Positions 9,491-64,000 of a stretch of 64,000 nucleotides of DNA are shown piece by piece (position 1 is the stretch's first letter; the number at the start of each line of letters is the position of its first letter). The DNA is taken from NCBI RefSeq assembly GCF_032681285.1, contig NZ_CP136338.1:78942-142941 (forward strand). Reading direction: 5' to 3'. Both the position numbers and the translations under genes were made by a program. Source of the stretch: Piscinibacter gummiphilus (GTDB lineage Bacteria; Pseudomonadota; Gammaproteobacteria; Burkholderiales; Burkholderiaceae_C). The notes under the pieces are model-generated. The model saw only the letters and a program-made list of their open reading frames with translations, had not been told where the DNA came from and ran no database searches.

Positions 9491-9495
9491 CCGCC

Positions 9496-12601: not shown

Positions 12602-12618
12602 GCTGCGAGGACTGACGC

Positions 12619-15304: not shown

Positions 15305-15328
15305 GTAACCGTCCGGCCAACTCACCTT
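15305..15328. repeat. Orphan terminal repeat of an IS66 element cut by IS1071
   Basis: These 24 bases, beginning GTAACCGTCCGG, are identical to the left terminus of the IS66-family element at 38801. Base 15329 begins IS1071. They are the stump of a second copy of that IS66 element whose body has been lost. The surrounding 15172-15304 contains no other feature. Confidence 0.8.
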
Positions 15329-46680: not shown

Positions 46681-46719
46681 GAAGCCCAGACACCGAAGCG
46701 AAACAAACAAGGAACAACC

Positions 46720-48469: not shown

Positions 48470-48514
48470 GGATGCGCCGACTAACCCGGCAATAGCAACA
48501 AGTTGGGACGTGAC

Positions 48515-48554
48515 ACCCCACGTGCAGACGGGAGAGGTACCTCTCCAGTGGGGT
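48515..48554. terminator. Nested inverted repeats between convergent genes
   Basis: A perfect 16-base palindrome GGAGAGGTACCTCTCC (48531-48546) sits inside an outer repeat ACCCCAC (48515-48521) / GTGGGGT (48548-48554). It lies between the HTH gene (plus) and the acetyltransferase gene (minus), so a bidirectional terminator is likely. It also marks the boundary between the T6SS locus and the RiPP-like cluster. Confidence 0.55.
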
Positions 48555-48568
48555 TTACTGCCGGACGC

Positions 48569-49153
48569 TTAGCGTTCTTGCTCGATCAGGGAAGTAAGCA
48601 CGTGGTCCTTCCACTCACCATTCAAGAAAAGGTAATCGCGGGCGTAGCCTTCCACAGAAAAACCGAGTCGGCGCAATAGCGCTCCACTCCGTTCGTTTGT
48701 GGGAATGTAGTTCGCCATCACTCGATGCATCTTCAACTCGTCGAAGGCATACCGCAATACACACGAAAGCGCCTCACGCATGTACCCCTTGCCTTCATAT
48801 GCACCGTCGATTCCGTATCCCAGATGGCAAGCGCGAAAGACTCCACGAACAATGTTGGTCAGTGAGATGTCGCCAATGATTGCGTCGTTGCCTTCCAAGA
48901 ACACGAAGAAGCGGACGCTTTTGCCTTCTTCGTAGTCGCGAGACGAATTTTCGATGGACCGCTTTGCTTCCTCCATGGAAAGCGGTTCGTTTCGTTTTGG
49001 TCCTATGGGAGCAAACCGCTCGTCATTTGCGGTGAGGTAAGCAAACAGTTGCGGTGCCATGGACAGGCGCGGCGTACGCAGCAAAACTCGTGTAGCCACC
49101 AGACTGACTCCCGTGTCGTGGTCAGCCATAGACTGCACCGTCGTTTTCGCCAT
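48569..49153 (-). CDS. GNAT acetyltransferase (RimJ/RimL type), last gene of RiPP operon
   Basis: This 194-aa GNAT N-acetyltransferase transfers acetyl from acetyl-CoA to an amine. The start TRVLLRTPRLSM, the central GDISLTNIVRGVFRACHLGYGID and the CoA-loop GKGYMREALSCVLRYAF fit the RimJ/RimL group, as do MANYIPTNERSGALLRRLGF and its C-terminal tail. It overlaps the upstream oxygenase-like gene by up to 32 bases; an internal ATG at 49129 gives a tighter overlap. In the cluster it could acetylate the peptide (N-terminus or lysine) or give self-protection. That is inference. Confidence 0.85.
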   Translation of the reverse strand: MAKTTVQSMADHDTGVSLVATRVLLRTPRLSMAPQLFAYLTANDERFAPIGPKRNEPLSMEEAKRSIENSSRDYEEGKSVRFFVFLEGNDAIIGDISLTNIVRGVFRACHLGYGIDGAYEGKGYMREALSCVLRYAFDELKMHRVMANYIPTNERSGALLRRLGFSVEGYARDYLFLNGEWKDHVLTSLIEQER

Positions 49154-49772
49154 AGAACTCGAAGTGCTGCGTCAATCGGCCATTCTCTTTTCGATCTCCG
49201 AAGACGCCGACAGACATGTGAAAACACTGACCCATTAGAAGCACCGCTCGGTTGTAGCGCATTGCGACCCGCTGAATCTCTTCCCAATTGCGAAGGTCGG
49301 CAAGGTAAGCAATCACAGCTTGGTTGATCTCCTCTGTGGGGCGATCGGCCAAGTGGCCGAACAACGCGCATTCGAACTCTCTCGTCGAAGCGACCAATCC
49401 TGTTTCACGATGCCTAAAGAAGGCGACACCCCCCTGGCAATCCTCCGGGCGGGCCAAGTAAATTACACCTGACCAACGCTGCGCGTCTTGATGGATTCCG
49501 TCAATGCGTGTTTGCTCATCGGGAGCAAGGGCCAAGCGAAACATTCCTTGAGGAAACGGTTGCGGCTTGGGACAAGGATAGTCAACAGCTTCGTCAATCT
49601 CAGCACGAAGGCGTTTCCACACCGGGGACCAGTCATAGTTCGGAACCTCTGCCTGCCCACCCGGGTATGTTGGGTTCCCGTGTCGCTCAAAGGTTTGGGC
49701 AAGGGCGAGACGTCGAATCTCCTCTGGGTTGTCGTAGAAATCGTCAATTACAACGATCGATCGGTGAGCCAT
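49122..49772 (-). CDS. DUF6445 / 2OG-Fe(II) oxygenase-like protein
   Basis: This 216-aa protein starts IVVIDDFYDNPEEIRRLAL, the usual opening of DUF6445 proteins. A 2-oxoglutarate oxygenase iron triad is visible: H94-x-D96 in GIHQDAQRWSGVIYL and H185 in GQCFHMSVGVFGD. R199 in GRLTQHFEFY is the likely 2OG-binding arginine. It overlaps tfuA by 25 bases. Predicted chemistry is hydroxylation or oxidation of a peptide side chain. A hydroxyl group made here could be the acceptor for the carbamoyltransferase in the same operon, which is my inference. Confidence 0.75.
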   Translation of the reverse strand: MAHRSIVVIDDFYDNPEEIRRLALAQTFERHGNPTYPGGQAEVPNYDWSPVWKRLRAEIDEAVDYPCPKPQPFPQGMFRLALAPDEQTRIDGIHQDAQRWSGVIYLARPEDCQGGVAFFRHRETGLVASTREFECALFGHLADRPTEEINQAVIAYLADLRNWEEIQRVAMRYNRAVLLMGQCFHMSVGVFGDRKENGRLTQHFEFYGENDGAVYG

Positions 49773-50470
49773 GAAACTTCCTCATCAAGGAATTTGATCC
49801 AACGCGTCGCCGTCACTAGCCGTATCGCCTCGACTGCGTCGCGTTTTTTGGGGTGAATACGATCATCTGAAGCCAGGAACTTGGCGCGATTGAGCGTGTC
49901 GCTCGTCATGCCGATGCGTGCCCACGCTTGCCACACATGTGACCAGCTTCTTTCAAGCCAGTAGATCGACCTTGCGCTCTCCAACAGTTCATCGATGGGT
50001 GGAGACGCAAGACCGTGAGGAAGCGCCCCAAGAAGTGCTCGAAGTTGCACGATAGAAACGCTGATTTCACTCCACGTATCTGGATCGTAAGACACTGCCA
50101 CGTCAGTGTCTGCGTCGATCTCTCCCAGGCGCATCAGCTGGTAAATGGTGCCCACACCGATCATGCCGGTCTGCCACAACTCACTCGCCCTGAGCGCCCC
50201 AATGGATCCAGCTCCGACAACAGTCCAACCGCGAGAGATCAATTGGGCACACTCAAGTGGAGTTACCGCCATTGATCCGCCGAAAAGACCGTCAACAAGA
50301 ACGACCGTTGCAGCTGGCCTGTCCAGGAGGGCAAAGAGATCGTCTCGGCGGGCAGGCGGACGTACTTCGCACCGTGAAAGCCAGCTTTGAGGCACACGGG
50401 AAAGCGACGGCCCGCCGAAAACCAGGGGTCGGCCCTCTTCAGATCCGACATCACGAAGCGACCGCATCAC
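49748..50470 (-). CDS. TfuA-like YcaO partner
   Basis: This is a 240-aa TfuA protein. Family motifs appear in order: FGGPSL (about 18-23), PPARRDD (38-44), VLVDGLF (57-63), GSIGALRASEL (88-98) and GMIGVG (102-107). TfuA proteins assist YcaO enzymes in replacing a backbone amide oxygen by sulfur, known for thioviridamide-type RiPPs and methyl-coenzyme M reductase. The start overlaps the YcaO fusion gene by 4 bases, matching a physical partnership. The C-terminal 100 residues are less conserved. Confidence 0.93.
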   Translation of the reverse strand: MMRSLRDVGSEEGRPLVFGGPSLSRVPQSWLSRCEVRPPARRDDLFALLDRPAATVVLVDGLFGGSMAVTPLECAQLISRGWTVVGAGSIGALRASELWQTGMIGVGTIYQLMRLGEIDADTDVAVSYDPDTWSEISVSIVQLRALLGALPHGLASPPIDELLESARSIYWLERSWSHVWQAWARIGMTSDTLNRAKFLASDDRIHPKKRDAVEAIRLVTATRWIKFLDEEVSWLTDRSL

Positions 50471-53400
50471 GCAAACTCCCGATAGTTTGACGAGCGCGAT
50501 TCGGGGATCGTGTCAATGTCGTACATCCCAGGAATGATCACGCACGCGACGGGAATTCCGACTCGGGGATTGGTCAGATCCACGTAAAGAACCTCTTCGA
50601 ATCCTTGAAGTCGGAGCGGCGTCACGACCTGCGCGATGAGCTCGCCGACGGTACGAGGCGATATAGGCTCCTTAGGGAGCTGCACCGTTCCATTTCGTGA
50701 GGCCGCCTCTCGCGCTCGCTGCCAATGGGCAGATCGTGCTGCTTGGTCGGCAATCCAGTCACTGCCATGCCGTACGAGATCCTCCCTTGATCCCTGAATT
50801 GCAACTACTCTCGACTGAGCAGCTTCAAGCGCTGCACGTTGCAGCGCAATTCGCGGAGAAGGGTTGCACCCTTGACCCGAGACAGGAATCCGCGGCTCCG
50901 GCCCCTCCGGCTCATAGAGAGACACGCTAAAAGCCGGTAAGGCGCTGATCTCATCGAAGGCAACCACGAAAAACTCAATCCCTGCCTGACTGAATCGCGC
51001 AAACAAATCGCGTTCTGGACCTTCGGGCAAGCTTGACACATCCAACAGACGCCCTGGATGTCCAACTTGGTAGCGGCTGAGCGCGTTTCGCTCTACTACC
51101 TCGAGTAGCCCATGAGCGATGGCCTCGTGCAAAGTGTTCCCTGCGGACAATCCCGTGGTACACCAAGACAAAGGTGCCGTCACCCCAGAAGGGGGCTCAT
51201 AAGGACTGAAAACAGCGGCCGCGGGAACCCACCTCGGCCGGGTTCCGTTTAGACCTTGCGCCCACACCCACTCAAACGCGCCTGTTTCAACATCGCGCCC
51301 ACCCAACCTCGATATTGGAAGGAATGGCTCCGACGAACGACTTAGCTCGGCCGGCGTCGCGATTCGAGTCCGCAGGTGCCGATGGTGCCAAGCGGAGTAG
51401 CGTTCGACCGTCTCCATCAGGGCGGACGCCAAAGCGTGATCTAAATCGACACCCTTTCCTTGAGTGCAGGTGATGTCCTCCTCTGAGACGAAGGGACGAA
51501 TGCAGCTGATGACTGGGATGCGCAGATGATCATAGTCAGAGACATCTGCAACTCTTCCCACTTGCATCACGGCTAGCTTTGACTTCACTCGCGAGATCGT
51601 TTGCGCCAGGTACTCGGTTCGTTGGGTACCGGCGACAAGGGGTGTCGGATCGTCAACTGCTGTACCTGTCAAAGGATGAATCGCCGGAGGTAATGGCAAT
51701 GTGCTCAGGCCATTTGCCGAGCCTTGCGGGACGCCGCCCTTGATTGCCAGTAGACGAAGCGCCACCAGCGACTCCAGTAATCGATGCGCGGCCGGCCGTA
51801 GATCGGCGCTCAGCGCATCAATGAAAGTCGACACGCTTCGTTCACCGTCCAACTGAGAGATCAACTGATATGCCCATTCCGGCAATTCAACAGCAGCGTC
51901 GCTACCTCGAGCCTCCGGGACGAGCAGATAGCGGCGCTCGCTATGGGTTATCCGAACATCAAGCCGGCATTTGGGCGGAAGCTGAAGCACCAGCTCAGGG
52001 GTGAGAGCCTTGGTCGGCATGCTGTAGGGTTGCACCAACGTATCACCGTTGAATACAACCGCGTCGAGATGCGTCGCCATCAACATCTCTATCGCTTGGC
52101 CGGGCGTTTCCACCAAAGGTTCACCTCGCACGTTAAATGAGGTGTTGACTAGCACAGGAACACCGAGCCGAGCGCCGACGCGGTGGAGCAATTCGTGGAG
52201 TTTTGGAAGCACGTCACGGCGCACTGTTTGCACTCGCGCCGTACCGTCCACGTGTGTAATCGCGCCAAGCATCTGACGATATCGATCACGTACGCGAACA
52301 ACTCGCAACATAAACGGACTGGGCTCGTCGATCTCGAAATACTCAGACGCCACTTCTTCGGGAACCATCGGCGCGAACGGCCGGAAGTCCTCACGAAATT
52401 TGATGCGGCGGTTGATGTAGGTCCACATGTCGCGGTCGGTCGGTGCGGCAAGCAATGAGCGCTGACCCAGAGATCGAGGACCAAACTCTGACCCACCATC
52501 AAACCAACCAACAATTTTTCGCGCAGCTAGTAGATCGACAATATCCTCGAGTCCGACAACCTGCTTTTGAACAAGCCCATCTGACTGCGCTATCGCGGCT
52601 GCGATGTCACGCCGGCTGTAAGGATGGCCAAATGCATCCGTAGCTATCGAGTTGGGGCTCAGTTCTCCTGTAGCAAACTTGTGCGCGCCCACGGCCGCAC
52701 CTATCGAGATTCCGGCATCGTGACAACTCGGCATTACATATAGCCCGGTAGCTCCCGTTTCGGTGCGCAAACGTTGATTGGCGACGCTGTTGAGTGCGAT
52801 TCCGCCGGCATACGCAACATCTCCGCACTTCGTCTTAGCAATTGCGGAGCGGAACCTGTCGATCAGCGCCGTTTCTAGGTCGCGCTGAACTCGAGCAGCG
52901 AGATCCCGGTATTCCATCGGCGCGCCGCGCTTGAGCACACGGCGGTGTTGGTTTCTCCAATGGTTGCCAAACTGCAACCGCCCATGCTCATCTCTAATCA
53001 GCAGCGTTCCGCCAAAGCGCTCAGGATCTCCATAGGGGGCAAGCCCCATGACTTTGCCGCTGGCCTGCCAATCACCGAAAACATATCCACTGATGGTTGC
53101 ATAGGCCTCCCCGAGGCGGCTGACACCAGAAATGGGGTTGAATACATCGGAATACTCACGATCAACAAGGGTCCAGCCATTGCCTCCAAAGCGGTAAACC
53201 GATTGGACGTGCAGTGGCTCTAAATGATGCGAGGGGGTAGAGAGGTAATCGAGAAGTTCCGGCCCCGATAGCAGCAGATCCGGCTTGCCAACTGTTGTCC
53301 CACCCGAGCCATCCGCGACGATCACCGTCGCTGTCTCGAAAGGAGAGCCATGGAAGGCGCCGAGGGCATGACTGAGATGGTGTGAGACGAAAACTGCCCT

Positions 53401-54783
53401 ATCTCCAAACGGATCGAAAAGTCGAAACCCGTCGTCATGTGAAGGCAGGCCCAAACCAGTCACTCCTGGTGAAAGCGGCATGCAGTTGAATGCGAAGAAG
53501 TCGACGTCCCGCTCTCTCAATCCGAGACTTGACAGACAGTAGTCCACGGCAAGAGATGAGTGCAAGAAGACCTGCCCGTCGTGCTTCACTCGTGTCAGCC
53601 GCTCCAACTGTATGGCGCGCACGAGCTTCCCATCGCGCAGCACACAAGCCGATGCATCGTGACTCGCAGAGATTCCAACGATGGTCAACGGCTTCTTGAT
53701 GCTCGTTCTTCGTGCGGCAGCTTCCTTGTGCGCATGAACTTGCGCACCGAACGCCACAACAACCACTTCCCCGTTGAAACCACCGTGCTTGAGCGTGCCG
53801 TTCACGGTCGTGTCTATCGACCTAGTCTCGAGGCAAGCCCATCCATCCCCATGCGGCATACAGCTCTGCGCCGCGTCTCCTTCGAGTTGAAACGCCAATA
53901 GCACGCTTGGAGAAAACCACATTGGTGAGCGCGGGAGGCTTTCTACGGCAGCCGCCATCGCCACCGGATTTCGTGGGCTATTGGCGCGCACCTGAAACGA
54001 GATAGGCTGCCCATCCAATCTGACTTGCAAGATGCATGGGAGATCTGCGAGGTCACAGGGAATTCGGTTCGAAGTGCCACCCAGCCCTGCAAGCGCAAGC
54101 GCACGCAATATCGAGGGTGAGACCAGTGCATTTGCAGCACGCAAGCGGCCACACCACACAGCCGCCCAGCCAACAACTAACGGCACGACGGCCTGCGCCA
54201 ACTCAAGGTGTCCAAGAGACCCGTCGGGCGCTCGCGCGCTGATCGCCACCGCTTCAGATAACTGTACAAACGGCCCACCCTGTTCCTGTGAGGGAGCGGT
54301 GGTGCGCACAGCGAGGACGTCAGGGCCTAGATCGAGGTCTGTCAAAGTCGCTGTGGCGACGACGAGGGCGCCCTCAGCCAGCTTTCCCAGCTGGGCCAAC
54401 AATTGCGACGAGGGTTCTCTGTCGAAAGGCTCACACAGACCAATCACATGAAAGGGTCCATGTTCCTCCACGCAGCGAAGAACCGAGTCAAGGCCGCAAC
54501 GCATCTCAGGCACACTAAGGTGCACAACCTCGGCGTTTCGCACAACGCCGAGTGAGCCGCCGGGCGCGCCATTCCGCTTCCCCTCGTCCACCAGAAGACT
54601 GAGGCGACGGCAAGGGACACCGTCGGAGACGTCAGATGAAGCGTGATTCGCCTCAGAGACGATCTGTACGCTTCGAGCAAAGCCCGAATCTACAGTCGCT
54701 GCATCAACGATGAGTAGTCGGACGCCCGCGCCGTCGAAGTGGTCGAGCGACAACGAGAGAAACTCACGAGCGCTGACAATCAT
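50467..54783 (-). CDS. Carbamoyltransferase-RRE-YcaO fusion enzyme
   Basis: This is a 1438-aa multidomain protein. Residues 1-360 are unassigned, with faint resemblance to CaiB/BaiF CoA-transferases (SLGHLELAQAVVPLVVGWAAV). Residues 366-918 form a complete NodU/CmcH-type carbamoyltransferase: ISASHDASACVLRDGKLV, VSHHLSHALGAFHG (HHLSHA 468-473), YAGGIALNS, SEFGPRSLGQRS and NTSFNVRGEP. Residues 945-1016 look like a winged-helix PqqD/RRE leader-binding domain (PEWAYQLISQLDGERSVSTFI). Residues 1060-1438 are a YcaO domain (QGKGVDLDHALASALMETVERYS; GNTLHEAIAHGLLEVVERNA). It ends NYREFA, without the PxPxP tail of azoline-forming YcaOs, consistent with TfuA-type thioamidation. The gene overlaps both neighbours by 4 bases. 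Confidence 0.93.
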   Translation of the reverse strand: MIVSAREFLSLSLDHFDGAGVRLLIVDAATVDSGFARSVQIVSEANHASSDVSDGVPCRRLSLLVDEGKRNGAPGGSLGVVRNAEVVHLSVPEMRCGLDSVLRCVEEHGPFHVIGLCEPFDREPSSQLLAQLGKLAEGALVVATATLTDLDLGPDVLAVRTTAPSQEQGGPFVQLSEAVAISARAPDGSLGHLELAQAVVPLVVGWAAVWCGRLRAANALVSPSILRALALAGLGGTSNRIPCDLADLPCILQVRLDGQPISFQVRANSPRNPVAMAAAVESLPRSPMWFSPSVLLAFQLEGDAAQSCMPHGDGWACLETRSIDTTVNGTLKHGGFNGEVVVVAFGAQVHAHKEAAARRTSIKKPLTIVGISASHDASACVLRDGKLVRAIQLERLTRVKHDGQVFLHSSLAVDYCLSSLGLRERDVDFFAFNCMPLSPGVTGLGLPSHDDGFRLFDPFGDRAVFVSHHLSHALGAFHGSPFETATVIVADGSGGTTVGKPDLLLSGPELLDYLSTPSHHLEPLHVQSVYRFGGNGWTLVDREYSDVFNPISGVSRLGEAYATISGYVFGDWQASGKVMGLAPYGDPERFGGTLLIRDEHGRLQFGNHWRNQHRRVLKRGAPMEYRDLAARVQRDLETALIDRFRSAIAKTKCGDVAYAGGIALNSVANQRLRTETGATGLYVMPSCHDAGISIGAAVGAHKFATGELSPNSIATDAFGHPYSRRDIAAAIAQSDGLVQKQVVGLEDIVDLLAARKIVGWFDGGSEFGPRSLGQRSLLAAPTDRDMWTYINRRIKFREDFRPFAPMVPEEVASEYFEIDEPSPFMLRVVRVRDRYRQMLGAITHVDGTARVQTVRRDVLPKLHELLHRVGARLGVPVLVNTSFNVRGEPLVETPGQAIEMLMATHLDAVVFNGDTLVQPYSMPTKALTPELVLQLPPKCRLDVRITHSERRYLLVPEARGSDAAVELPEWAYQLISQLDGERSVSTFIDALSADLRPAAHRLLESLVALRLLAIKGGVPQGSANGLSTLPLPPAIHPLTGTAVDDPTPLVAGTQRTEYLAQTISRVKSKLAVMQVGRVADVSDYDHLRIPVISCIRPFVSEEDITCTQGKGVDLDHALASALMETVERYSAWHHRHLRTRIATPAELSRSSEPFLPISRLGGRDVETGAFEWVWAQGLNGTRPRWVPAAAVFSPYEPPSGVTAPLSWCTTGLSAGNTLHEAIAHGLLEVVERNALSRYQVGHPGRLLDVSSLPEGPERDLFARFSQAGIEFFVVAFDEISALPAFSVSLYEPEGPEPRIPVSGQGCNPSPRIALQRAALEAAQSRVVAIQGSREDLVRHGSDWIADQAARSAHWQRAREAASRNGTVQLPKEPISPRTVGELIAQVVTPLRLQGFEEVLYVDLTNPRVGIPVACVIIPGMYDIDTIPESRSSNYREFA

Positions 54784-55655
54784 TGTTGCTTGGAAGGTTC
54801 AGCGATGCTTGGCACGAACGAAAGATCTGCCAACAAGCGCTCCAGCCGGGTCAGCTCTTCGTCAACTTGGTCGTCAGGCGTAGCCTCTGAAAACTCGTAC
54901 GTCACAGCGCGCAGCGATGGAGCGCTTGCTACCAGTTGCGCCAAGAGGTCAGCAACTTCCGGAAGGATGAGGTCTGTGTGGTTGTCGACGTAGTAATAGG
55001 GCTCGGACGGTTTGGCGCCTCCGCCGGCAATATGAGCCTCCCATACGTGCCCCAGAGGCAAGCTTTGCAAGACGTCTCGGGGCTCTTGTCCTGTGTAGAG
55101 TGCATAGGAGAAGACATGGCTGACATCGATTACGAGCTTGCATCCGCTTCTCTCGACGATTTCGTGGAAGAACTCACCGAGTGAAATGCGTCCCGCGACA
55201 AAACTGCAAGAAGGGATCTCAGCCAAGAAGGGTACTGAAGAGCGACGTTCGACGGTCGCCACGCGCTCCCCAATGAGTTGCGCGACATCTCGTTCGAAAA
55301 GAGGTGGTGCGAAATAAGGAATGTCGTAGGGCCCAATGGACCAGGCTCCGATGTCCTCTCCGCACCAAACAGCACCCATCTGCTGAGATAGCGAATCAAG
55401 GTGATCCAGCCGATCAAGATGCGGGCCGTCTGCATCGCCAGGGGCCACATTCGAAAGATGGTGAACGAGGGGCAATCCAGCAAAGATCTGCTTGAATTGT
55501 TTGGCATCCTGCTCATTGATCATCGCGACCACCGATACATGGGATAAGCGCCCCTTGAATCGGTCCGCAAGTCGCCGCATGACCGACGGCGGTTGTAGCT
55601 GAAAATCAAGGCCGAAGCCGACGCGTGGGATGCCGCGGAGGTCTAATGAATTCAC
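54780..55655 (-). CDS. DUF692 / multinuclear iron oxygenase (MNIO, MbnB/TglH type)
   Basis: This is a 291-aa TIM-barrel enzyme. Candidate metal ligands are H65 or H66 (LVHHLSN), E146 (LAEIPSC), D177 and H180 (IDVSHVF), H208 (EAHIAGG), D224 and H226 (VDNH) and E254 (TYEFS). Where most members read SEHLAW, this one reads GEDIGAW, so one usual His ligand is apparently Asp101. MNIOs oxidise residues of RiPP precursors, often Cys, sometimes Asp or Asn. The candidate precursor here has no Cys, so an unusual reaction is expected. It overlaps both neighbours by 4 bases. Confidence 0.9.
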   Translation of the reverse strand: MNSLDLRGIPRVGFGLDFQLQPPSVMRRLADRFKGRLSHVSVVAMINEQDAKQFKQIFAGLPLVHHLSNVAPGDADGPHLDRLDHLDSLSQQMGAVWCGEDIGAWSIGPYDIPYFAPPLFERDVAQLIGERVATVERRSSVPFLAEIPSCSFVAGRISLGEFFHEIVERSGCKLVIDVSHVFSYALYTGQEPRDVLQSLPLGHVWEAHIAGGGAKPSEPYYYVDNHTDLILPEVADLLAQLVASAPSLRAVTYEFSEATPDDQVDEELTRLERLLADLSFVPSIAEPSKQQ

Positions 55656-56329
55656 GCCAAGTCCTCCGAACCCACGATCATTGATCGATCCTCAAAGCAA
55701 AGTACGAATGCCAGCACGGGGTGGTTCCGCCGACGTCCCAAACTGACCTTCGAATCTGAGTCGAGCAAGTCAAAGCTGCTGACGAAGGCTTCAGTGGCGA
55801 CAACGCGAGGGGTTCGCAAATGTGCTGGTGCGGGCTTCGCAGAGGGCCATGGAGACTGCTGATCAGGGGCAGCCGAAAGGCCACAAACAACGCCAACGAG
55901 TCTTGCCAGGTCCGCCAACCCCTCCTCGCCCGAGGCAGTGAAACGAGCCGTGGCGAACAGGCAGAAGTTCTCGCTGAGACTTCTGCCTCGTGGCTCCCAA
56001 AAGCTTTCATCGCCTGCGAAGGCCGACATGAAGTTTGCCAACCTTTCGTCTCCTGCGGCACGCCACAAGGCTTCACACTGACGCCGGCAGTGGCCTATAA
56101 GGTCTGCGATTCGTTGACGACGCTCGACGATTAACCGCTCGCAGTCGAAGGTCTCCATGAATTGACGATATGACGCCGTTGATAGCGACTCGATGGAAGG
56201 AGCTTCCTTGGTCAAGTCCGCGCTGTAAAGCACCCGAAGATGCATCCGCATCTTGTCCGCGGCACTAAGGCTAAGGCCGCCAAGTTCGCTTGGCTCTGAC
56301 AAGCGTGGTGATGTGGAGCTACTGCCCAT
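55652..56329 (-). CDS. Unrecognised protein in MNIO-partner position
   Basis: This 225-aa soluble protein is helical in the first 150 residues (LIVERRQRIADLIGHCRRQCEALW) and has a beta-rich end (HPVLAFVLCFEDRSMIVG). It lies between the precursor and the DUF692 gene, overlapping the latter by 4 bases. In methanobactin, TglHI and related pathways the MNIO has an obligate partner protein encoded next to it that binds the leader. This protein occupies that place, but I see no sequence proof. The spacer 56330-56471 carries a terminator and no gene. Confidence 0.6.
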   Translation of the reverse strand: MGSSSTSPRLSEPSELGGLSLSAADKMRMHLRVLYSADLTKEAPSIESLSTASYRQFMETFDCERLIVERRQRIADLIGHCRRQCEALWRAAGDERLANFMSAFAGDESFWEPRGRSLSENFCLFATARFTASGEEGLADLARLVGVVCGLSAAPDQQSPWPSAKPAPAHLRTPRVVATEAFVSSFDLLDSDSKVSLGRRRNHPVLAFVLCFEDRSMIVGSEDLA

Positions 56330-56423
56330 CGCAAATCCCGTGACCTCTCACATGTACAACCAAGTGCTCCGTCGCATTGATGGAGTGCGCATTTGCCTTG
56401 GGACATTGAGGGGCGAAACAAGT

Positions 56424-56450
56424 AAAAAACACGGACGCCAGAGGCGCCCG
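56424..56450 (-). terminator. Intrinsic terminator after precursor gene
   Basis: On the minus strand GGGCGCC-TCT-GGCGTCC (one G-T pair) is followed by GTGTTTTTT, about 20 bases after the precursor stop. Partial termination here would make precursor mRNA exceed enzyme mRNA, a common RiPP arrangement. Confidence 0.8.
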
Positions 56451-56471
56451 CTCAGCCTTTAAGGCCGATCC

Positions 56472-56645
56472 TTACCAGGGCTTCTGACGAGCCTTATTGG
56501 ACAGGCCAGCAATGAACGGGATGGGACCCAGTTTCACGTTGACCTTCGCCTTCAGGTCGCTAAGGCTCGCCTCAGCCGCCGTCAACTCCGCCTCTTTCTT
56601 GGCAGGCGTCTCGACGTTCTTCTCCACGTCTTTTCCGATTTCCAT
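56472..56645 (-). CDS. Candidate RiPP precursor peptide (57 aa, Cys-free)
   Basis: ATG 56645 follows GAAAGGAA at good spacing. The peptide starts MEIGKDVEKNVETPAKK, has an amphipathic Lys/Glu/Ala-rich leader (to about residue 39) and ends GPIPFIAGLSNKARQKPW. There is no Cys, no His, and only three Ser (27, 29, 49). The C-terminal part differs sharply in composition (Pro, Phe, Gly, Trp), as expected of a core. A C39-type cleavage site is not clear; after G40 (KLG) or G47 (IAG) are options. It is the first gene of the minus operon and is set between two intrinsic terminators. Alternative precursors could lie beyond the right edge. Confidence 0.72.
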   Translation of the reverse strand: MEIGKDVEKNVETPAKKEAELTAAEASLSDLKAKVNVKLGPIPFIAGLSNKARQKPW

Positions 56646-56659
56646 CGATATTTCCTTTC

Positions 56660-56689
56660 AAAAAAATAACCCTCCGGGATCATGGAGGG
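56660..56689 (-). terminator. Attenuator-like terminator in precursor leader RNA
   Basis: On the minus strand CCCTCC-ATGATCCC-GGAGGG is followed at once by TTATTTTTTT, a textbook intrinsic terminator. It ends about 15 bases before the precursor ATG. No minus-strand gene lies upstream that it could terminate, so it may work as an attenuator in the precursor's 5' leader. Confidence 0.7.
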
Positions 56690-56893
56690 CGCGCGCATGC
56701 TGCAAAAAACGAATGTTGCTGTCAAGGAGTGTCAGAGGGAACACAAACGCTTACAGTAAGAATGAGTGGAGCCGACGTCTGCTCTCTCGACTGAGACAAA
56801 CACTTTGAACTCGCGGTCATCAGTGCCCCCCCAATTTGGGGTCACTCTTCAGAACGAAATCGATGTTGAAAGTGGAGTCCAACCTCCGCCTCA
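56690..56893. promoter_or_regulatory. Divergent control region with operator-like dyad
   Basis: This gap between the precursor leader and the rhodanese-E1 gene must contain both promoters. At 56829-56841 CCCCAA-T-TTGGGG is a perfect dyad, extended by AGTG and CACT to 56822-56845. It lies about 50 bases before the E1 start and 180 before the precursor ATG, well placed for a shared regulator. No regulator gene is seen in the visible part of the cluster. Confidence 0.6.
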
Positions 56894-58165
56894 ATGCGGT
56901 TGTGCGCCACCCCCAAAGAGGCGAGGCTCTTTCTCACTGCTCTCACATTCAGCGGACCTAACATCAGAGTTGTGTCGCATCTAGCGGAGTCAGAATTGCG
57001 AGGACATGAGCAACTGCTTGCGGATATCCGCAAGCGCATTCCAGAGGTGGCGCCGCAGGAGGCGTTTGCGCTACAGGCATGCGGCGCTGCGCTGATCGAC
57101 GTGCGGGAACAAGATGAGATTTCAGACGGCACCGCGGCTGGCGCCATGACTTTGAGTCGAGCCTTCCTTGAACTCCGGATCGAAGCACTGGTTCCGGATC
57201 TCGATCGCCCAATCTTGGTGATGTGCGCTAGCGGCCTCCGATCTCTTCTTGCCGCCGACAATTTGGCGCGCTTGGGATACACATCAGTGCGGTCGGTGTC
57301 CGGCGGCTTCGTGCGTTGGAAGGCCGAGCGCCTCCCTATTGAGTCCCGCGAGGTATTAGACGCCACTGCACGAGACCGCTATTCACGGCATTTGCGCGTG
57401 CCGGAGATCGGTGAGTCCGGGCAGCTGAAACTTGCGCGATCGAAAGTGTTGATTGTTGGCGCGGGAGGACTCGGTTCTCCAGCAGCCTTTTACCTTGCTG
57501 CAGCTGGTGTTGGCACGATCGGACTCGTCGACGACGATCTTGTTGAGCGTAGCAATCTGCAGAGGCAAATCCTCCACACGGACGCTCGCGTAGGTACGCC
57601 GAAGATCGTTTCCGGTCGTCTCACTCTAGAGGCGCTCAACCCAGATGTACACGTCATAGGCCATCAGACGAGGCTAACAAAGGACAATGTCGAAGAGATC
57701 TTCGAAGGCTACGACGTGGTCGTCGATGGCTCAGACAACTTTCCAACGAGATACCTGATCAACGACGCTTGCGTGAAGACTGGCATCCCGAACGTATACG
57801 GGGCGGTGATGCGGTTTGAGGGGCAGGCTAGCGTTTTCTGGCCTTCGCGACCGAATCATCGGGGGCCTTGCTATCGATGCCTATTCCCTGAGCCACCCTC
57901 GGCCTCGAACTCTCCATCATGCGCAGAGGCTGGCGTTGTCGGTGTGCTGCCTGGAATCGTGGGCCTATTGCAAGCAAATGAAGCCATCAAGGTTCTGCTT
58001 AACATCGGCGAGCCTCTTACGGGACGAGTTCTTAGCTTCGATGCGTTGCAAGGGAGCTTCTCTGAGTTTCGATTTGCACCGGACCCAGCCTGCCCACACT
58101 GCAGCAAAGGTCGGCAGTTTCCCGGGTACACGGACTACGAACAATTTTGCGCCGTGCAGGCGTGA
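56894..58165 (+). CDS. Rhodanese-E1 (MoeZ/ThiF-like) adenylyl- and sulfurtransferase
   Basis: This is a 423-aa protein. Residues 45-150 form a rhodanese domain with the persulfide Cys111 in MCASGLRS. Residues 160-423 form an E1-like domain: GAGGLGS at 189-195, LVDDDLVERSNLQRQ, zinc pairs CYRC (326/329) and CPHC (400/403), and Cys343 in CAEAGVVGVLPG. Known relatives adenylate and thiocarboxylate a sulfur carrier ending Gly-Gly. No carrier gene is visible here. In this cluster it is the likely sulfur donor for the TfuA/YcaO step (inference). The rhodanese precedes the E1 domain, the reverse of MOCS3. The start is uncertain; GTG 56972 is an alternative. Confidence 0.87.
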   Translation: MRLCATPKEARLFLTALTFSGPNIRVVSHLAESELRGHEQLLADIRKRIPEVAPQEAFALQACGAALIDVREQDEISDGTAAGAMTLSRAFLELRIEALVPDLDRPILVMCASGLRSLLAADNLARLGYTSVRSVSGGFVRWKAERLPIESREVLDATARDRYSRHLRVPEIGESGQLKLARSKVLIVGAGGLGSPAAFYLAAAGVGTIGLVDDDLVERSNLQRQILHTDARVGTPKIVSGRLTLEALNPDVHVIGHQTRLTKDNVEEIFEGYDVVVDGSDNFPTRYLINDACVKTGIPNVYGAVMRFEGQASVFWPSRPNHRGPCYRCLFPEPPSASNSPSCAEAGVVGVLPGIVGLLQANEAIKVLLNIGEPLTGRVLSFDALQGSFSEFRFAPDPACPHCSKGRQFPGYTDYEQFCAVQA

Positions 58166-58192
58166 GCCATCGTTTCGCACTGCGTCGGTGTG

Positions 58193-60307
58193 CTACCGGT
58201 GTGCAACCATGACGACCGCTCGTGAAGTCTCGTTGATGAAGCGTAAGCAAATCAGAAAAGTAGCCGGATCCAAAGTACCAAGGCTTTCATCGACCAGCAA
58301 CACATCAGGCTCTTGAAGTATTGCTCTAGCCAAAAACAGCCTCGAGCGCTCGCCGTGAGAAAGGCGCCAACCAGTTTCTCCAAGCGTTTGTTGCATACCG
58401 GAAGGCATCGCGTCGAGTAACGGGCCAAGAGCTAAGGCGCGAAGAACACGCTCAGCCTCTGCGACATCTTCAGTCGTTGCCGGCCACCCCCTGCCCATGA
58501 GACAGTTGAATGCTACGGTGCCCGTGAAAACGTGGTTGGAGTTGAACTGGGGCACTGCTACGACCCGTTGCCCCCAGTCGGCGACGCTGAGCAAACGTCG
58601 GTCAATCCCGCGCGACTTGAGTTCGCCTGCAGTGGCTTCACGAAGGCCAGCCAATATTGCGATCAAGGTACTCTTGCCTTCGCCGGATGGAGCCTCGACA
58701 AGGAGGCGATGGCCCTCGCCAATCCGTAGCGAAACTGATTCCAGAAGATCAGCTCTCGCACGTGGATAGCGGTACCTCAATGCTCGCACTTCGAGCAGAG
58801 GAACGGATGCAGGAACGCCAACGCGAGGATGTGGAGGCTGTCGATCCGCACGGTGCGCCGCAGCGGCGTCTAATAGCGGAGCAACGCGGTCGAAGGCTCC
58901 CCGCGCAGCATTGATCTGAGTCAGCGCCGTCGCGACCCTACTTAATGCACCGTGACCGAGGAGCACGGCACCGACCATGACTGCAAGTTCGATGCTTGCC
59001 GCCTCGCGAATGAAACTCGGAAGCAACGCTAGCAGGCCTATCGCAATGCTTGCTCGGCCAAGCAGTGCAAGCAACCAAAAGTGAGCGCGGTCAACTCTCT
59101 CCGATTCAGCACGGTACTGCTCTAGCAGTACTTCTTCGCGCTTGAACCACGCCGCTGGGGGGCACTGAGCAAGCCTAGTACGGTGACCGACGACGCCCTC
59201 GACGAGTTCCCCCGTGAGCCGCGCCTTTGCATTGGACCAGCTTATCCATGCTCGATAGTGAAGCCGCCCGGCTATCGCTACGGCTATGAAGAGAATGACG
59301 TAGCAAAGTCCGGCTAGCCGCCCGAGGGGGGACCAAAGAAGTATGCCCAGCACCGTCGCAGCCTCTACTACTGCCAGCATACCCAACAGCACACCATCGA
59401 GCGCTACGCTCTCAATATAGTTCGACTCAAGGACGAGCCCAATCAAGTTGCCCGTTCCGCGGCGACGAGCGCTGTCGACATCGATCCGTAGAGCCCCTCG
59501 GAAGAGCCACCGCTTCATCACCGTTGAAAGTGATATTACTGTGTCAATGCCGAGCCGACTTGAAAGAGTGCGGCACAGGCCTGCGCATGCAAACAGCAGC
59601 AGCGCCCCCCAAAGCAGGTCAGGATCGAGCCGTCCAGTCAGCGTAATACTCCCGATCAGCGCCCAGGCTGATAGGAACAACACATACTGAAGCGCATAGA
59701 GCGCGAATATCCAGGTGCTACGCCAAACAATGCCCGCTGCTCGGAGTTGACCTAGGAGACCTGGCGCCGGCGCTGCGCGAAAGGTCCACGCCAGTGCGAC
59801 CGGTTTAGTGCCAACAATCGATGAAGCAAGTTCATCGCGCACGCGTCTGCGGACCTGCGGATCTTCGACGCTGGAAACGACAGACTCGAGTTCACCCGAA
59901 AATGAAGACGTCGCCTGGCTCAACAGCCACGCAACCAAGTCCGCCATCGACACGCGCGCTGGCTTGTCATATCGGTGCGGGGTAAACAGCTCAACCAAAT
60001 CTCGCTGACGCCGCGCGAACAACACACGAGAAGCTTCCAGATCGCCTTCCATGATCAAGAGCGTGAATTGTCCGGTCGCAAGCAGCGGCGCGACATCGCC
60101 CGATGACAGGGACACACAAGCGCAATCTAGTCCCGCCCTTTCGGCAAGTGCCCGAATCCATCGCTGGCGCGTTTCGCCGTCAAGCTCGGCGTCAGTCGGA
60201 CCGGCTAGCTGCTGATCGTGATCACGAACACCCGGAACCAGCTGGAGAAGATGCCGCAACTCACTCAGCGAAAAGGCTCGGTCGTTCAGAGGTGCGTCAC
60301 GGTTCAA
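58193..60307 (-). CDS. ABC exporter subunit with long N-terminal region
   Basis: This is a 704-aa permease-ATPase. About 165 soluble residues precede the membrane domain (TWIFALYALQYVLFLSAWALI, AICYVILFIAVAIAG-like helices). The ATPase has Walker A EAPSGEGKST, Q-loop VPQFN, signature LSHGERSR and Walker B LLVDESLGTLD. The protein ends immediately after the switch His (MVAHR), about 25 residues earlier than usual. It overlaps the C39 ABC gene by 11 bases. The pair plus HlyD recalls the NHLM/NHLP bacteriocin export set, in which one ABC protein lacks the peptidase domain. It is convergent with the rhodanese-E1 gene 27 bases away. Confidence 0.88.
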   Translation of the reverse strand: MNRDAPLNDRAFSLSELRHLLQLVPGVRDHDQQLAGPTDAELDGETRQRWIRALAERAGLDCACVSLSSGDVAPLLATGQFTLLIMEGDLEASRVLFARRQRDLVELFTPHRYDKPARVSMADLVAWLLSQATSSFSGELESVVSSVEDPQVRRRVRDELASSIVGTKPVALAWTFRAAPAPGLLGQLRAAGIVWRSTWIFALYALQYVLFLSAWALIGSITLTGRLDPDLLWGALLLFACAGLCRTLSSRLGIDTVISLSTVMKRWLFRGALRIDVDSARRRGTGNLIGLVLESNYIESVALDGVLLGMLAVVEAATVLGILLWSPLGRLAGLCYVILFIAVAIAGRLHYRAWISWSNAKARLTGELVEGVVGHRTRLAQCPPAAWFKREEVLLEQYRAESERVDRAHFWLLALLGRASIAIGLLALLPSFIREAASIELAVMVGAVLLGHGALSRVATALTQINAARGAFDRVAPLLDAAAAHRADRQPPHPRVGVPASVPLLEVRALRYRYPRARADLLESVSLRIGEGHRLLVEAPSGEGKSTLIAILAGLREATAGELKSRGIDRRLLSVADWGQRVVAVPQFNSNHVFTGTVAFNCLMGRGWPATTEDVAEAERVLRALALGPLLDAMPSGMQQTLGETGWRLSHGERSRLFLARAILQEPDVLLVDESLGTLDPATFLICLRFINETSRAVVMVAHR

Positions 60308-62969
60308 CTAACTGTCCTCGCCGTAACACGACTCGCCTCCAATCGGCGTTTTGCCACAAGGCATCATCCGTCTCCTCGTCTTTCGCGAGCAGATTTCGGT
60401 ATTGGTGCCCGCGATGAGCCAGTTCCTGCGGGGCGCCGCTCTCTGCGATTTGGCCATTGTCGACAACCAAGACGCGATCAAAATCGAGCGTCTCCGCAAT
60501 GTTGTGAGTGACACAAATCAACGTGGCGTGGTGCCAATGTTTTCGTGCGAGAAGAAGAAGACGCTTCCGCTGAACTGAATCCAGGCCGCGGAACGGTTCA
60601 TCAAGAATTACGAGATTCGCATCGCGGCGGTACAGAGCGCGTGCAAGCCGAATACGCTGACCTTCGCCACCCGACACGAGCGTACCGCCCTCACCCAACT
60701 CTGTATGAATTCCCGACTCCATTCGCTCTAGGACGGCTGCAAGATCGGTGGCATCGAGGACCTCTGCGAGTTCGGGCCCCACTCTCGAAAGACATCCGTA
60801 TCGCACGTTGTCAATGAGGGACCGATTCCAAATCTGAGCGCCGGGATCAACCCAGGCTGTGCGCGCGCGCAACGCCTCCAGACGATCCGGTGTCAGAGGT
60901 ATCCCATCTATCAGGATCTGACCTCTGCTCGCCCGCTGCCATCCCAAGAGTAGGCCGACAAGGGAAGACTTCCCCGCTCCAGAAGCCCCAACTACGGCGA
61001 CGTGCTCGCCGGTCTCGATCGAGAGAGACACATTCTGAAGAATAGAGCGATGTGCCGACGTGTTGACTGTGACCGAGTCGAATTGAATTCGCACCCCACC
61101 AGAAGCGGCGGGGGGTTGACTGTCGCCGACAACTGACTCACTTTCGAGAGCAACAGTCAGAGGCTCAATCAGGCGCAAAACCTCATTCTTCAACGTTGCT
61201 GTACGTCGCCAAAGCAATGCCAAATCATTGGCGAGAATCGGCAACAACAAGGCCCAGTAGGCCAATAGAAGCATGGTGACCGAAGAGACCGCTCCGCTCG
61301 CAAGTGGCAACACCAACACACCCACAAGCAAGACGCCCATTCCGACAAGCGCCAGCTCTGTCTTTATCGCCAGGCGACCAAAGGAACCTTGTGCGCGTCC
61401 CCAACTACGAACAAGGCGCTCTTGCTCCGTTTCCATCGCCTCAGCAGCATTGTGAGCGCGTATAGGCAACACGCCGATCAACGCGTCTAGATAGAAGCTC
61501 ACTAGGCCGCCGGCATGGGTCTGGGCGCGCAAATCGTAGTCTGCCAAGCGCGCCTGAAACAGGAACGGCACTACCAGAACCGCCGCAGACAACCCGACAA
61601 CGGGAAGCGAGCTACCGGGTATGAGCCACACAAGGCCCGCCGTGATGGTGATGAACGCGGTAAGCGCGCGCAGCCAGCGAAAGAGGACGTCTGGCAACGA
61701 CCTTAGGACCGCGATGCCGTGAAATCGGTCAGCGAGATCGGTGCCGGAGCGGGTTCGAAAATATGTGTCTGGCAGCCGTGGAAGGCGCTGCAACAGAGAT
61801 ACCCGGAATCGGAGGTCGACGTGCCTTCCAATCTGAAGACCCATCCGAACGCATAGCGCATCTATCACCCAAATCGTGACAAAGACAAGGAGCAGCAAAA
61901 GACAAGCTGACAGGCGCTGATGGTCTGCGTGGAGATAAGACTGCGTGGAAAGCAGCGTCCGCGTCGAGAGCGCTGCCACGAGTTCAATCAAGGAGGCTGC
62001 TACTGACAACGGCAGCATACTTGCGCAAAGCCACCGTAGATGTGTTGGCATGAGCCCCCACAGAACGAGTGCGGGATGCGGCGTTCGTCCATATATCGAC
62101 TTGAGATCAGGTTCGTCTTTCGCGGCTTCCGGCGCCACCCCAGCAACCTGTGCCTCTTTTGCCAGCTCTTTGAGTCGACTGGTTCCCGTGATGCGGAGTG
62201 TGGGCACGCCGCGCAACATGACCGTTGCCTCATCGTCGACGATTGGAACTGCCGACCAGTACATTGCTGGGATGTAGCGCTCGTCGTGAAGCGGAGCCGG
62301 GGTTGCCAGTTCGAACAGCCGTCGAACCAATTGGTCTGCACTTGAGCCTCGGCTCAGCGCACCACGGCTTACCATGGCATCGACGCTTCGCAAGCTGGCA
62401 TCGAGCGCCGCGATCTGCCGGGTCGGCTTATCTGGGTCGGCCTCCGCAAGCAGCCCCTTTGCGTCAACGACACCAAGGCGGTCGAGGCGGTCTCGCATCA
62501 CGTCACGGAACTCAGTGCGGGCAGTAGTCCAGGAGCGCCAATGCTCAGCATCTAGCGGCATCATATGCACGAGGACCTCTGCGAGGATTTCCCGCACGTG
62601 AAGCCACCGGCGTCCGTGAGCTGGATCCATCACGAGAATGCGATCACCGAATCGTTCCCAGAGCACGATAAAGTGCGCTAACCCCGTGGGCAGTCTGGTG
62701 ATGACCACAGCGGGCAGGTGCTCGTGCCCCTTTAGAAGCAGGTCCTCTGGCGGAACCAACGCCTTGTCGGTGTCGAACCCAAAGCGTTCCAAAAGCGATT
62801 CGAGTACGTCAAAAGAAGTCCCGTCGACATCCGTCGCGCAAGCTTCGCGAATGCGGTCGTACCTCACCGGCACGCCGTACCCCTCCATCAGACTCTTTAT
62901 CACCGCAGGGCCGCAGTCGTTGCCCGAAGTCTGAACGACTTCTGGAATGATGTACCGCTTGCGGATCAT
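60297..62969 (-). CDS. Peptidase C39-ABC bacteriocin-type exporter
   Basis: This is an 890-aa PCAT transporter that cleaves leaders and exports the peptide. The N-terminal C39 protease (1-135) has its full triad: Cys19 in NDCGPA, His99 in LAHFIVLW and Asp115 in VMDPAHG. A linker of about 200 residues and a six-helix domain follow. The ATPase carries Walker A GASGAGKSS (661-669), signature LVSGGEGQR (764-772) and Walker B LVILDEPF with THN as switch. The start overlaps the HlyD stop by 4 bases. It is the probable leader protease for the 57-aa precursor, though that peptide lacks a standard double-glycine site. Confidence 0.94.
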   Translation of the reverse strand: MIRKRYIIPEVVQTSGNDCGPAVIKSLMEGYGVPVRYDRIREACATDVDGTSFDVLESLLERFGFDTDKALVPPEDLLLKGHEHLPAVVITRLPTGLAHFIVLWERFGDRILVMDPAHGRRWLHVREILAEVLVHMMPLDAEHWRSWTTARTEFRDVMRDRLDRLGVVDAKGLLAEADPDKPTRQIAALDASLRSVDAMVSRGALSRGSSADQLVRRLFELATPAPLHDERYIPAMYWSAVPIVDDEATVMLRGVPTLRITGTSRLKELAKEAQVAGVAPEAAKDEPDLKSIYGRTPHPALVLWGLMPTHLRWLCASMLPLSVAASLIELVAALSTRTLLSTQSYLHADHQRLSACLLLLLVFVTIWVIDALCVRMGLQIGRHVDLRFRVSLLQRLPRLPDTYFRTRSGTDLADRFHGIAVLRSLPDVLFRWLRALTAFITITAGLVWLIPGSSLPVVGLSAAVLVVPFLFQARLADYDLRAQTHAGGLVSFYLDALIGVLPIRAHNAAEAMETEQERLVRSWGRAQGSFGRLAIKTELALVGMGVLLVGVLVLPLASGAVSSVTMLLLAYWALLLPILANDLALLWRRTATLKNEVLRLIEPLTVALESESVVGDSQPPAASGGVRIQFDSVTVNTSAHRSILQNVSLSIETGEHVAVVGASGAGKSSLVGLLLGWQRASRGQILIDGIPLTPDRLEALRARTAWVDPGAQIWNRSLIDNVRYGCLSRVGPELAEVLDATDLAAVLERMESGIHTELGEGGTLVSGGEGQRIRLARALYRRDANLVILDEPFRGLDSVQRKRLLLLARKHWHHATLICVTHNIAETLDFDRVLVVDNGQIAESGAPQELAHRGHQYRNLLAKDEETDDALWQNADWRRVVLRRGQLVEP

Positions 62970-64000
62970 CTTGTCGGCTTTTCATTTGGGCGCACCAAAT
63001 CACCCAACATTGCCCTGAACAAACTTATCGGGGTCATTTGGGCAACGACGATCTCAACACTACCGCTCAATCCGTGCTGGAGAGGAATCCGCGACGCTTT
63101 CTGGTCGTCCAGCGCAAGCTCGACACGAATAAGACCGTTGTGCGGCTCAGCTGCCGCTCGAGTAACGCGGCCTTCGAGCATCCCGAATTCTGCCCATGGG
63201 AACCCGCCAACACGCATCGTGCCTAGCTGACCCTCGCTGACCCGGCCGACCGCTTCTTGCGGCGCGTAGTCAGCCACAATAGTTAGCGTGCCATTGGGGA
63301 GGATCGTCGCCAACCGCTCCCCCTCGGCAACGGCAGATCCAACTTGGTTTGCGCCGATACCAATTATTTTTCCGGCGCGACTGGCATAGATCTTCCGGAG
63401 CTCGACACGTCGACGTGCAACCTCCACCGCCGCACCTGCGGTACTCTGCGCACCCTCCAGTTCAACAAGCGTCTGCTTGATCCGATCGATGCGAACGCGG
63501 ACAGTGTTCTGCCGCACAACCACCTCATCTGTCGCTCGACGGGCCTCGGCTTCCGCGACGGCTAGAAGTGCCTTCTGCTGCTCAGCAAGTGAACGGCGCC
63601 GGACTCTGTCCATTTCAGCAACCATCTCTCCCAATCTGTTGCTCTGTGCGAGTTCTGCTTCGGCCAAACCCACCGCGCTCTTCGTCTGAGCGACTCGCGA
63701 ATGGACTGCCTCCACCTGGCTTTTGGCGACATTGGTTTCGCGCTCAAGGAGAAGCATTTCATTTGCGAGTTCCGCACGAACGGCCACCAACCTTGATCCC
63801 AACGCTGCCAAGCGCAGCTCTTCTTCCTCTAGTTGACGGGTCTCAACTGCGTGTTCCAACTCGGCAATGAGTTCGCCCGAAGTGACCTGCCGGCCAAGTT
63901 CCAGTTTCGAGAAAGCCAAGACGCCTGCAGCGGGTGCGACTACCGGTTGGATTTCCTTGCGTTCGATCCGAGCGGCATTGCTGATTGCGTAGAGATTGAT
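62966..64000 (-). CDS. HlyD-type membrane fusion protein (start outside window)
   Basis: The frame is open to the right edge (reading INLYAISNAARIERKEIQP), so the N-terminal membrane anchor is outside. A TTG at 63919 is not the real start. The visible part has the first lipoyl half (VVAPAAGVLAFSKLELG), a long coiled-coil hairpin (about 63820-63420), the second lipoyl half (IYASRAGKIIGIGANQVGS) and the beta-barrel. It bridges the inner-membrane ABC exporter to an outer-membrane channel. No TolC gene is in the window. Confidence 0.92.
   Translation of the reverse strand: MNLYAISNAARIERKEIQPVVAPAAGVLAFSKLELGRQVTSGELIAELEHAVETRQLEEEELRLAALGSRLVAVRAELANEMLLLERETNVAKSQVEAVHSRVAQTKSAVGLAEAELAQSNRLGEMVAEMDRVRRRSLAEQQKALLAVAEAEARRATDEVVVRQNTVRVRIDRIKQTLVELEGAQSTAGAAVEVARRRVELRKIYASRAGKIIGIGANQVGSAVAEGERLATILPNGTLTIVADYAPQEAVGRVSEGQLGTMRVGGFPWAEFGMLEGRVTRAAAEPHNGLIRVELALDDQKASRIPLQHGLSGSVEIVVAQMTPISLFRAMLGDLVRPNEKPTR

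Follow-up and report, generated by a model that had tools for sequence, protein, structure and literature searches.

This locus raises the question of what a compact row of genes joining an MNIO, a YcaO-TfuA pair and a carbamoyltransferase around one small peptide might produce, and whether such a pathway is new. It lies at the right end of the 64,000-nucleotide stretch of Piscinibacter gummiphilus DNA analysed here (the window), which is also the end of contig C3 (142,941 bp). Seven minus-strand genes encode a 57-aa peptide, a 225-aa protein, the MNIO, a 1438-aa fusion, TfuA, a DUF6445 protein and a GNAT. The precursor gene lies 142 nt upstream of the other six, which overlap by 4 nt (partner/MNIO), 4 nt (MNIO/fusion), 4 nt (fusion/TfuA), 25 nt (TfuA/DUF6445) and 32 nt (DUF6445/GNAT), in agreement with the linkage by overlaps of 4-32 bases that the first-pass annotation had proposed for all genes but the peptide. 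A rhodanese-MoeB gene is divergent to this row, and beyond it stand two ABC proteins, one of them with a C39 domain, and an HlyD. Profile searches assign the families GNAT, DUF6445, TfuA, NodU and YcaO in one protein, MNIO (PF05114), rhodanese-MoeB, C39-ABC, second ABC and HlyD, and every gene named in that annotation is found in its place with the family given there. Two points can be refined: carbamoyltransferase and YcaO form one ORF, and the gene set extends beyond the window end, because HlyD reads through from the contig end to the contig start. The proposed C39 export set (C39-ABC, second ABC and HlyD) is likewise present, with HlyD completed across the contig end. Since HlyD forms a full 390-aa ORF when the end is joined to the start, C3 is most likely a circle and probably a plasmid. 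The features are listed below in window coordinates unless stated otherwise; L003 and L010 are the sister locus and the std locus described afterwards.

56472..56645, minus strand: precursor peptide, 57 aa, SNK core, tail ARQKPW (homologous ORF in L003; SNK also in StdA of L010)
55652..56329, minus strand: 225-aa MNIO partner, StdD-like (tblastn to L003 and to the StdD place of L010)
54780..55655, minus strand: MNIO, StdE-like (PF05114; 47% to the MNIO of L010)
50467..54783, minus strand: 1438-aa fusion of decayed S8 peptidase, NodU carbamoyltransferase, RRE-like part and YcaO (profiles, AF2 model, Foldseek)
53764..54783, minus strand: S8 subtilisin-like domain, residues 1-340, catalytic His and Ser lost (alignment, AF2, Foldseek)
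51994..53673, minus strand: NodU carbamoyltransferase domain, residues 371-930 (Pfam; PDB relatives TobZ and GdmN; 55% to the NodU part of L010)
53116..53145, minus strand: loop 547-556 of the NodU domain, family Arg551 replaced by Ile (family alignment)
51709..51951, minus strand: possible RRE-like (PqqD-type) linker, a weak match (ApyI model 15.5 bits, PaaA-like_N 13.7 bits, both below cut-off)
50470..51618, minus strand: YcaO domain, residues 1056-1438 (Pfam; best NCBIfam model the McrA-glycine thioamidation YcaO, below cut-off)
49748..50470, minus strand: TfuA (Pfam)
49122..49772, minus strand: DUF6445, putative 2OG-Fe(II) oxygenase with HxD...H...R (Pfam)
48569..49153, minus strand: GNAT (nearest NCBIfam model the ribosomal-protein-S5-alanine N-acetyltransferase, below cut-off)
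56894..58165, plus strand: rhodanese-MoeB (E1) (PRK08762, 592 bits, cut-off 449)
58193..60307, minus strand: ABC transporter, second subunit (Pfam)
60297..62969, minus strand: C39 peptidase-ABC transporter (Pfam; 43% over 916 aa to L003)
62966..64000, minus strand: HlyD adaptor, continuing past the contig end, 390 aa in all (HlyD_3 5.8e-9)
Contig 275-556, outside the window, next gene after HlyD: ThiS-family protein, 93 aa, ending GG (Pfam 1.1e-9)
48272..48566, plus strand: direct repeat flanking the cluster on the left (its right-hand counterpart, at contig 875-1167, is 78% alike over 298 columns)

The 64-kb window holds no tRNA, and no Rfam match at gathering scores.

To our knowledge, the std pathway, to which these genes bear the closest comparison, is known from one experimental preprint. 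The latter, dated May 2026, concerns a cluster of Streptomyces thermodiastaticus composed of StdA (SNKEWQE), the partner StdD, the MNIO StdE, the S8/S53-NodU protein StdF, the YcaO StdG, the TfuA StdH and an MFS permease (PMC13174530). According to its available text, the in vitro work showed StdGH forming a thioamide at Asn, StdF both converting Lys into homocitrulline by carbamoylation and cutting EWQE off, and StdDE hydroxylating this homocitrulline twice; the YcaO-TfuA reaction was run with ATP and sulfide, and MNIO activity was seen only in mixtures containing StdF, on product already cut. The same source counts 97 StdA orthologue hits, in which Ser, Lys and Trp of the motif are 100% conserved, and leaves open the StdF active sites, the order of its two reactions and the leader protease. 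In its main text, the terms 'rhodanese', 'acetyltransferase', '2OG', 'MoeB', 'ThiF', 'sulfur carrier', 'GNAT', 'C39' and 'ABC transporter' have no occurrence (PMC13174530).

A contig scan with the MNIO alignment returned 8 loci, including that of S. thermodiastaticus JCM 4840 itself (L010), in which homologues of the MNIO, partner, NodU, YcaO and TfuA lie beside a peptide ending SNKEWQE; this supports membership of the window cluster in the std family. The pathway, which the first-pass annotation had called undescribed, has the core genes and SNK core of this published cluster (PMC13174530), and a novel RiPP class is ruled out by the same literature. What stands, on the homologous std genes and the SNK core, is a well-supported RiPP pathway joining MNIO and YcaO-TfuA chemistry with carbamoylation, although the O-carbamoylation first envisaged gives way, by analogy with std, to a carbamoyl group on the Lys nitrogen (PMC13174530). 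The window shares with L010 the SNK core, an RRE-type partner with its MNIO (31% and 47% identical to those of L010), S8-NodU, YcaO and TfuA. The partner has no Pfam match and is related by tblastn to L003 (38%, 1e-35) and, at the position of StdD, to L010 (31% over 201 aa, 1e-18). Unlike std, the window fuses YcaO to S8-NodU, leaving TfuA separate, has a decayed peptidase and carries the tail ARQKPW, not EWQE; it adds DUF6445, rhodanese-MoeB and ThiS, and has a C39-ABC/HlyD set for export where the std preprint names an MFS permease (PMC13174530).

Two further loci frame the comparison. L003, on a 12.9-kb contig of the Deltaproteobacteria MAG P_S1_bin.18 (Myxococcota according to the tree tool), has the same gene order as the window, i.e., precursor, partner, MNIO, a 1476-aa fusion with a dead S8 domain, TfuA, DUF6445, HlyD and C39-ABC; it differs by its core (SGK) and tail (VDPNG), and no GNAT, MoeB or ThiS is seen on that contig. 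L009, from Pseudomonas fluorescens PfR 37 (6631-15758), has counterparts of the window's modification, GNAT and sulfur genes side by side in a compact row (GNAT, rhodanese-MoeB, DUF6445, ThiS-like, partner, MNIO, S8-NodU, YcaO, TfuA), but with a separate YcaO, an S8 domain that keeps Ser and His, and an SNKEWQE precursor; an MFS-like gene comes next (33.1 bits, cut-off 33.4), and no C39 set is present in 20.8 kb.

The window precursor ends in VKLGPIPFIAGLSNKARQKPW, the SNK core being followed by the ARQKPW tail. Two observations support the reading of the 57-aa ORF as a gene: an ORF in the corresponding place of L003 (1141-1299) is homologous to it (17/37 identical, E 2e-9 in a single comparison), and AAAGGAAA is found ahead of its ATG. 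The L003 peptide has 52 aa and ends in VKLGSIPFVAAMSGKVDPNG; SxK is common to both precursors, their tails differ, and since the L003 core is SGK and not SNK, the Asn of the core is not fixed. The SNK core typical of the std family is present in the window precursor, its sister carrying SGK, and the EWQE follower with its conserved Trp is replaced by ARQKPW. Elsewhere, precursors end in EWQE in L004-L007, L009 and L010 and in DWSE in L008, an ORF of less than 140 aa ending in an SNK-type tail being found in 7 of the 8 loci (L004-L010; six SNKEWQE, one SNKDWSE). EWQE is encoded in none of the six reading frames across the window and contig positions 1-20000 and 60000-79000, and a protein profile search with the window and L003 peptides matched these two only. 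Scanning 56300-57000 around the precursor revealed no sigma-70-type promoter; terminator-like sites in the scanned region numbered 3, against 0.9 expected. A terminator-like stem at 56431-56451, just past the precursor stop and ahead of the modification genes, could set the precursor:enzyme ratio.

The decay of the peptidase is directly visible in the sequence. An AF2 model of the N-terminal 365 residues of the fusion (pLDDT 77.9, pTM 0.84, 25 sequences) has subtilisins as its best Foldseek matches in the PDB, including 3afg (E 5.6e-11, TM 0.55 by query length); TM values range from 0.34 to 0.57 among the 50 matches listed, and the RiPP protease PagA (4h6w) is included. Fusion of NodU to an S8 domain is thus common to the window and std; the catalytic His and Ser of that domain are replaced in the window by Pro and Gln, respectively, and in L003 by Val and Asp. 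In a Longimicrobium protein (P0078), whose N-terminus is short, Gly takes the place of Ser. The family alignment comprised 65 rows, some of them near-duplicates (the window; P0070-P0126; L003-L006, L008-L010), leaving out P0068 and P0127-P0129, with P0069 replaced by L003 and L007 having no NodU match in 12.1 kb. Ser is kept in 62/65 rows and His in 63/65; the S8 Asp, present in 49/65, varies in the family and is therefore little informative.

As a control for divergence, deviations were counted per domain at the columns where the other rows are conserved to 95% or more. Deviations in the S8 domain reach 9/9 columns in the window and 8/9 in L003, values that could be too high if a domain this divergent is misaligned, against 0/9 in L010; in NodU, they amount to 11/128 and 5/128 for the window and L003. 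L010 and P0083 have no deviation in either domain, and P0070 has 0/9 in S8 and 3/129 in NodU. Compared with 16 other YcaO rows, the window and L003 each deviate at 3/35 YcaO columns, and the window MNIO at 1/47 (46/47 kept). The S8 counts set against those of NodU indicate that the peptidase has lost constraint and that the window NodU is somewhat loosened. The GTS motif is absent from the aligned S8 stretches of the window and L003, and no peptidase family besides C39 matched among the cluster proteins scanned. In the Streptomyces S8 domains of L010 (10841-14007), L004 and L005, the Asp position is occupied by Ser with an adjacent Asp (SDG); the acid residue may have shifted in these domains, StdF being reported to cleave despite the Ser at this position in L010 (PMC13174530).

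In the NodU domain, 4 of the 11 window deviations fall within the ten-residue loop 547-556 (family SFNVRxGSSS), which is nearly invariant in the family and altered in the window and L003. Arg551, kept in 62/65 rows, is missing from the window, L003 and P0078, the same three proteins that lack the peptidase Ser. The SHHLSHA motif is present in the window, and the aligned TobZ segment starts two residues after the Arg551 position; we infer that Arg551 may bind the carboxylate of a cut or acidic tail. A tree of the 65 NodU domains groups the window with L003 (100/99) and gives P0078 an intact protein as its neighbour (98/94), a topology that would imply that Ser and Arg551 were lost twice in parallel. 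Two independent losses were not retained as an explanation: one clade of the three dead proteins is compatible with the data (p-AU 0.368), so the loss of both residues may be a single event. The correlation between tail and peptidase may also represent one event, as both peptidase-dead precursors come from one clade.

TobZ and GdmN carbamoylate small molecules; they are sequence homologues of the window NodU domain and, unlike the window fusion, are without an S8 or YcaO part. The best NCBIfam models for the window YcaO and TfuA, both below cut-off, are those of the McrA-glycine thioamidation pair of methanogens, which targets a large enzyme subunit and not a RiPP precursor. Searching for the fusion returned 62 proteins (from 7,988 best candidates), 12 of which carry both NodU and YcaO Pfam domains, including the window's own shorter gene model and the L003 fusion. 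The literature search yielded no description of a carbamoyltransferase-YcaO fusion in the text it covered; RREs fused to carbamoyltransferases are reported (PMC12710340), and 'NodU' and 'carbam' have no occurrence in the available text of an MNIO survey (PMC12452194).

One way to read the decayed peptidase is that the pathway is nonetheless an ordinary std one, in which C39 or a different protease acting in trans still cuts behind Lys to release the tail, giving the std product. The SNK core, MNIO and partner are conserved and, since the std MNIO worked only in the presence of StdF and after cleavage, the window pathway may require a cut too (PMC13174530). Yet the tails of the two members (ARQKPW and VDPNG) differ, so no shared cut motif is visible; C39 is the only peptidase family among the cluster proteins scanned, and Arg551 has been lost in parallel, which together make this ordinary route rather unlikely. 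It is still less probable that the chemistry itself has changed, with NodU either carbamoylating another acceptor (Lys55 or a tail residue) or being non-catalytic, and the core modified by YcaO-TfuA, MNIO and DUF6445 only. The acceptor may indeed differ, given the altered loop around Arg551, nearly invariant elsewhere and changed in the window and L003 alike; against this, 117 of the 128 near-invariant NodU columns and the SHHLSHA motif are kept, as is the Lys of SxK in both precursors.

The sulfurtransferase of the first-pass annotation is present and divergent, as described there, and is, more precisely, a rhodanese-E1; the ThiS-like carrier that pairs with it is encoded past the contig end. 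Its sequence includes CASGLRS (from residue 111) and GAGGLGSP, and the locus thus has the rhodanese Cys, the E1 nucleotide motif and the carrier ending GG of an E1/ubiquitin-like sulfur relay. Among the 8 std-type loci, rhodanese-MoeB occurs in 2, with an E1-only match in L005. In L007 and L009 it stands just before DUF6445, and an 88-aa protein ending GG lies between DUF6445 and the partner, its ThiS match being weak in both (E 0.009 and 0.095, below the Pfam cut-off). Of five proteins submitted to PADLOC, only MoeB matched, the best 25 of 29 matches being E1-E2 models. The rhodanese-MoeB/ThiS pair might instead serve another sulfur step or molybdopterin synthesis, and not the thioamide, since std YcaO-TfuA worked with ATP and sulfide (PMC13174530) and the 20.8 kb of L010 contain no MoeB homologue. 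Such a role appears improbable: the genome has a further MoeB-like match on its largest (5.6-Mb) contig (47% over the E1 part, across one stop codon), the MoeB/ThiS-like pair lies inside the cluster in L007 and L009, and the available text of two reports places similar genes near ycaO-tfuA in methanogens (PMC5589413) and ubiquitin-like and E1 proteins in a P. fluorescens 'YcaO cluster' (PMC8719888).

The remaining tailoring genes can be read from their motifs. An HxD...H...R triad with its 2OG-binding Arg is the signature of 2OG-Fe(II) oxygenases. In the DUF6445 family, H94, D96, H185 and R199 are invariant in 5/5 sequences, all of which hold the motif; the structure model (pLDDT 45.5) is too low for fold reading, and DUF6445 is not named in the literature searched. 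DUF6445 occurs in 4 of the 8 std-type loci and GNAT in 6 (four of them Streptomycetaceae), a recurrence that says little alone because GNATs are common.

For the pathway, we infer every chemical step, its site and its order. YcaO-TfuA would receive sulfur from rhodanese-MoeB by way of the ThiS-like carrier and use it to thioamidate the SNK core at the Asn50 amide. Lys51 would become homocitrulline through carbamoylation by the NodU domain, which shares its polypeptide with YcaO; the MNIO and its partner would then hydroxylate this residue, and DUF6445 probably adds an oxidation. The S8 domain would no longer cut after Lys and would survive as a non-catalytic fold, the tail (ARQKPW in the window, VDPNG in L003) either staying on the peptide or being cleaved off by an unlinked protease. 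Leader removal and export would fall to the C39-ABC/HlyD set, and the GNAT may acetylate an amine, which would serve tailoring or self-protection. Inspection of the precursor by eye showed no GG site of the usual kind for C39. It is, in our judgement, probable that the cluster sits on a plasmid, belongs to the std (SNK) RiPP family as a divergent member and works in this way. By analogy, its steps should match those of std as far as the tail, although a kept tail fits badly with an std MNIO acting only on the cut product. As judged from its genes, it appears to fail two defining std features, the EWQE follower and the active peptidase, and to add others; the three-domain fusion, the decayed peptidase, the changed tail and the C39 export are new in this variant.

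A more specific proposal, to which we give somewhat less than an even chance, is that this SNK lineage gave up tail removal: an internal Asn-Lys would be modified with the tail retained, the dead subtilisin would act as a binding scaffold, the Arg551-less pocket would not read a C-terminal carboxylate, a dedicated rhodanese-E1/ThiS relay would supply sulfur and the leader would be removed by C39 export. If this is true, the product would be a new, longer RiPP. The variant constitutes a natural experiment in which one domain has decayed and others are conserved, with a different tail and one differing carbamoyltransferase residue, and it names Arg551 as a residue of interest in that enzyme. It also adds to the few cases tying a sulfur-carrier relay to YcaO-TfuA thioamides, and makes the C39 exporter a candidate leader protease for a std-type pathway.

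Further members were sought by sampling genomes for MNIO matches at E<=1e-30, the own or centre genome being counted in each n. Matches were found in 1/369 genomes of the own class and 1/399 of the own family (itself in both cases), 2/377 in the phylum of L003 (L003 and L006), 1/396 in the phylum of L010 (itself) and 1/348 in the genus of L009 (itself); the SNK/std family is rare in these samples. With the MNIO as marker, the cluster was found in no other genome sampled from its own genus and family. Matches at E<=1e-3, in 28/60 genomes (own included), were discarded as other MNIO families, the best elsewhere having 2.1e-13. A plasmid tblastn with the fusion gave 576 records, none covering 80%, the 20 matches listed hitting the NodU part; with the MNIO at E<=1e-20 it gave none, and 20 pattern matches in viral contigs included no relative. 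The exact precursor protein (P0130) is found on 53 contigs and the exact MNIO (P0001) on 45, so the replicon or strain may recur in public assemblies.

Imperfect direct repeats lie on both sides of the cluster, since a 711-bp stretch on its left has a single further match within the 5.9-Mb genome, and this second copy, immediately to the right of the ThiS gene, has the same orientation (78% over 298 columns plus 93% over 44). The left repeat ends beside the GNAT stop codon, and the pair looks like a module boundary. Farther left, an IS21-type pair (istA, istB) at window 45127-47457 is ~92% identical to plasmid copies, its left end being overlapped by a VgrG-like ORF (42192-45200), and window 15327-19888 is >99% identical to IS1071 and ISPps1 copies on several plasmids among the matches listed.
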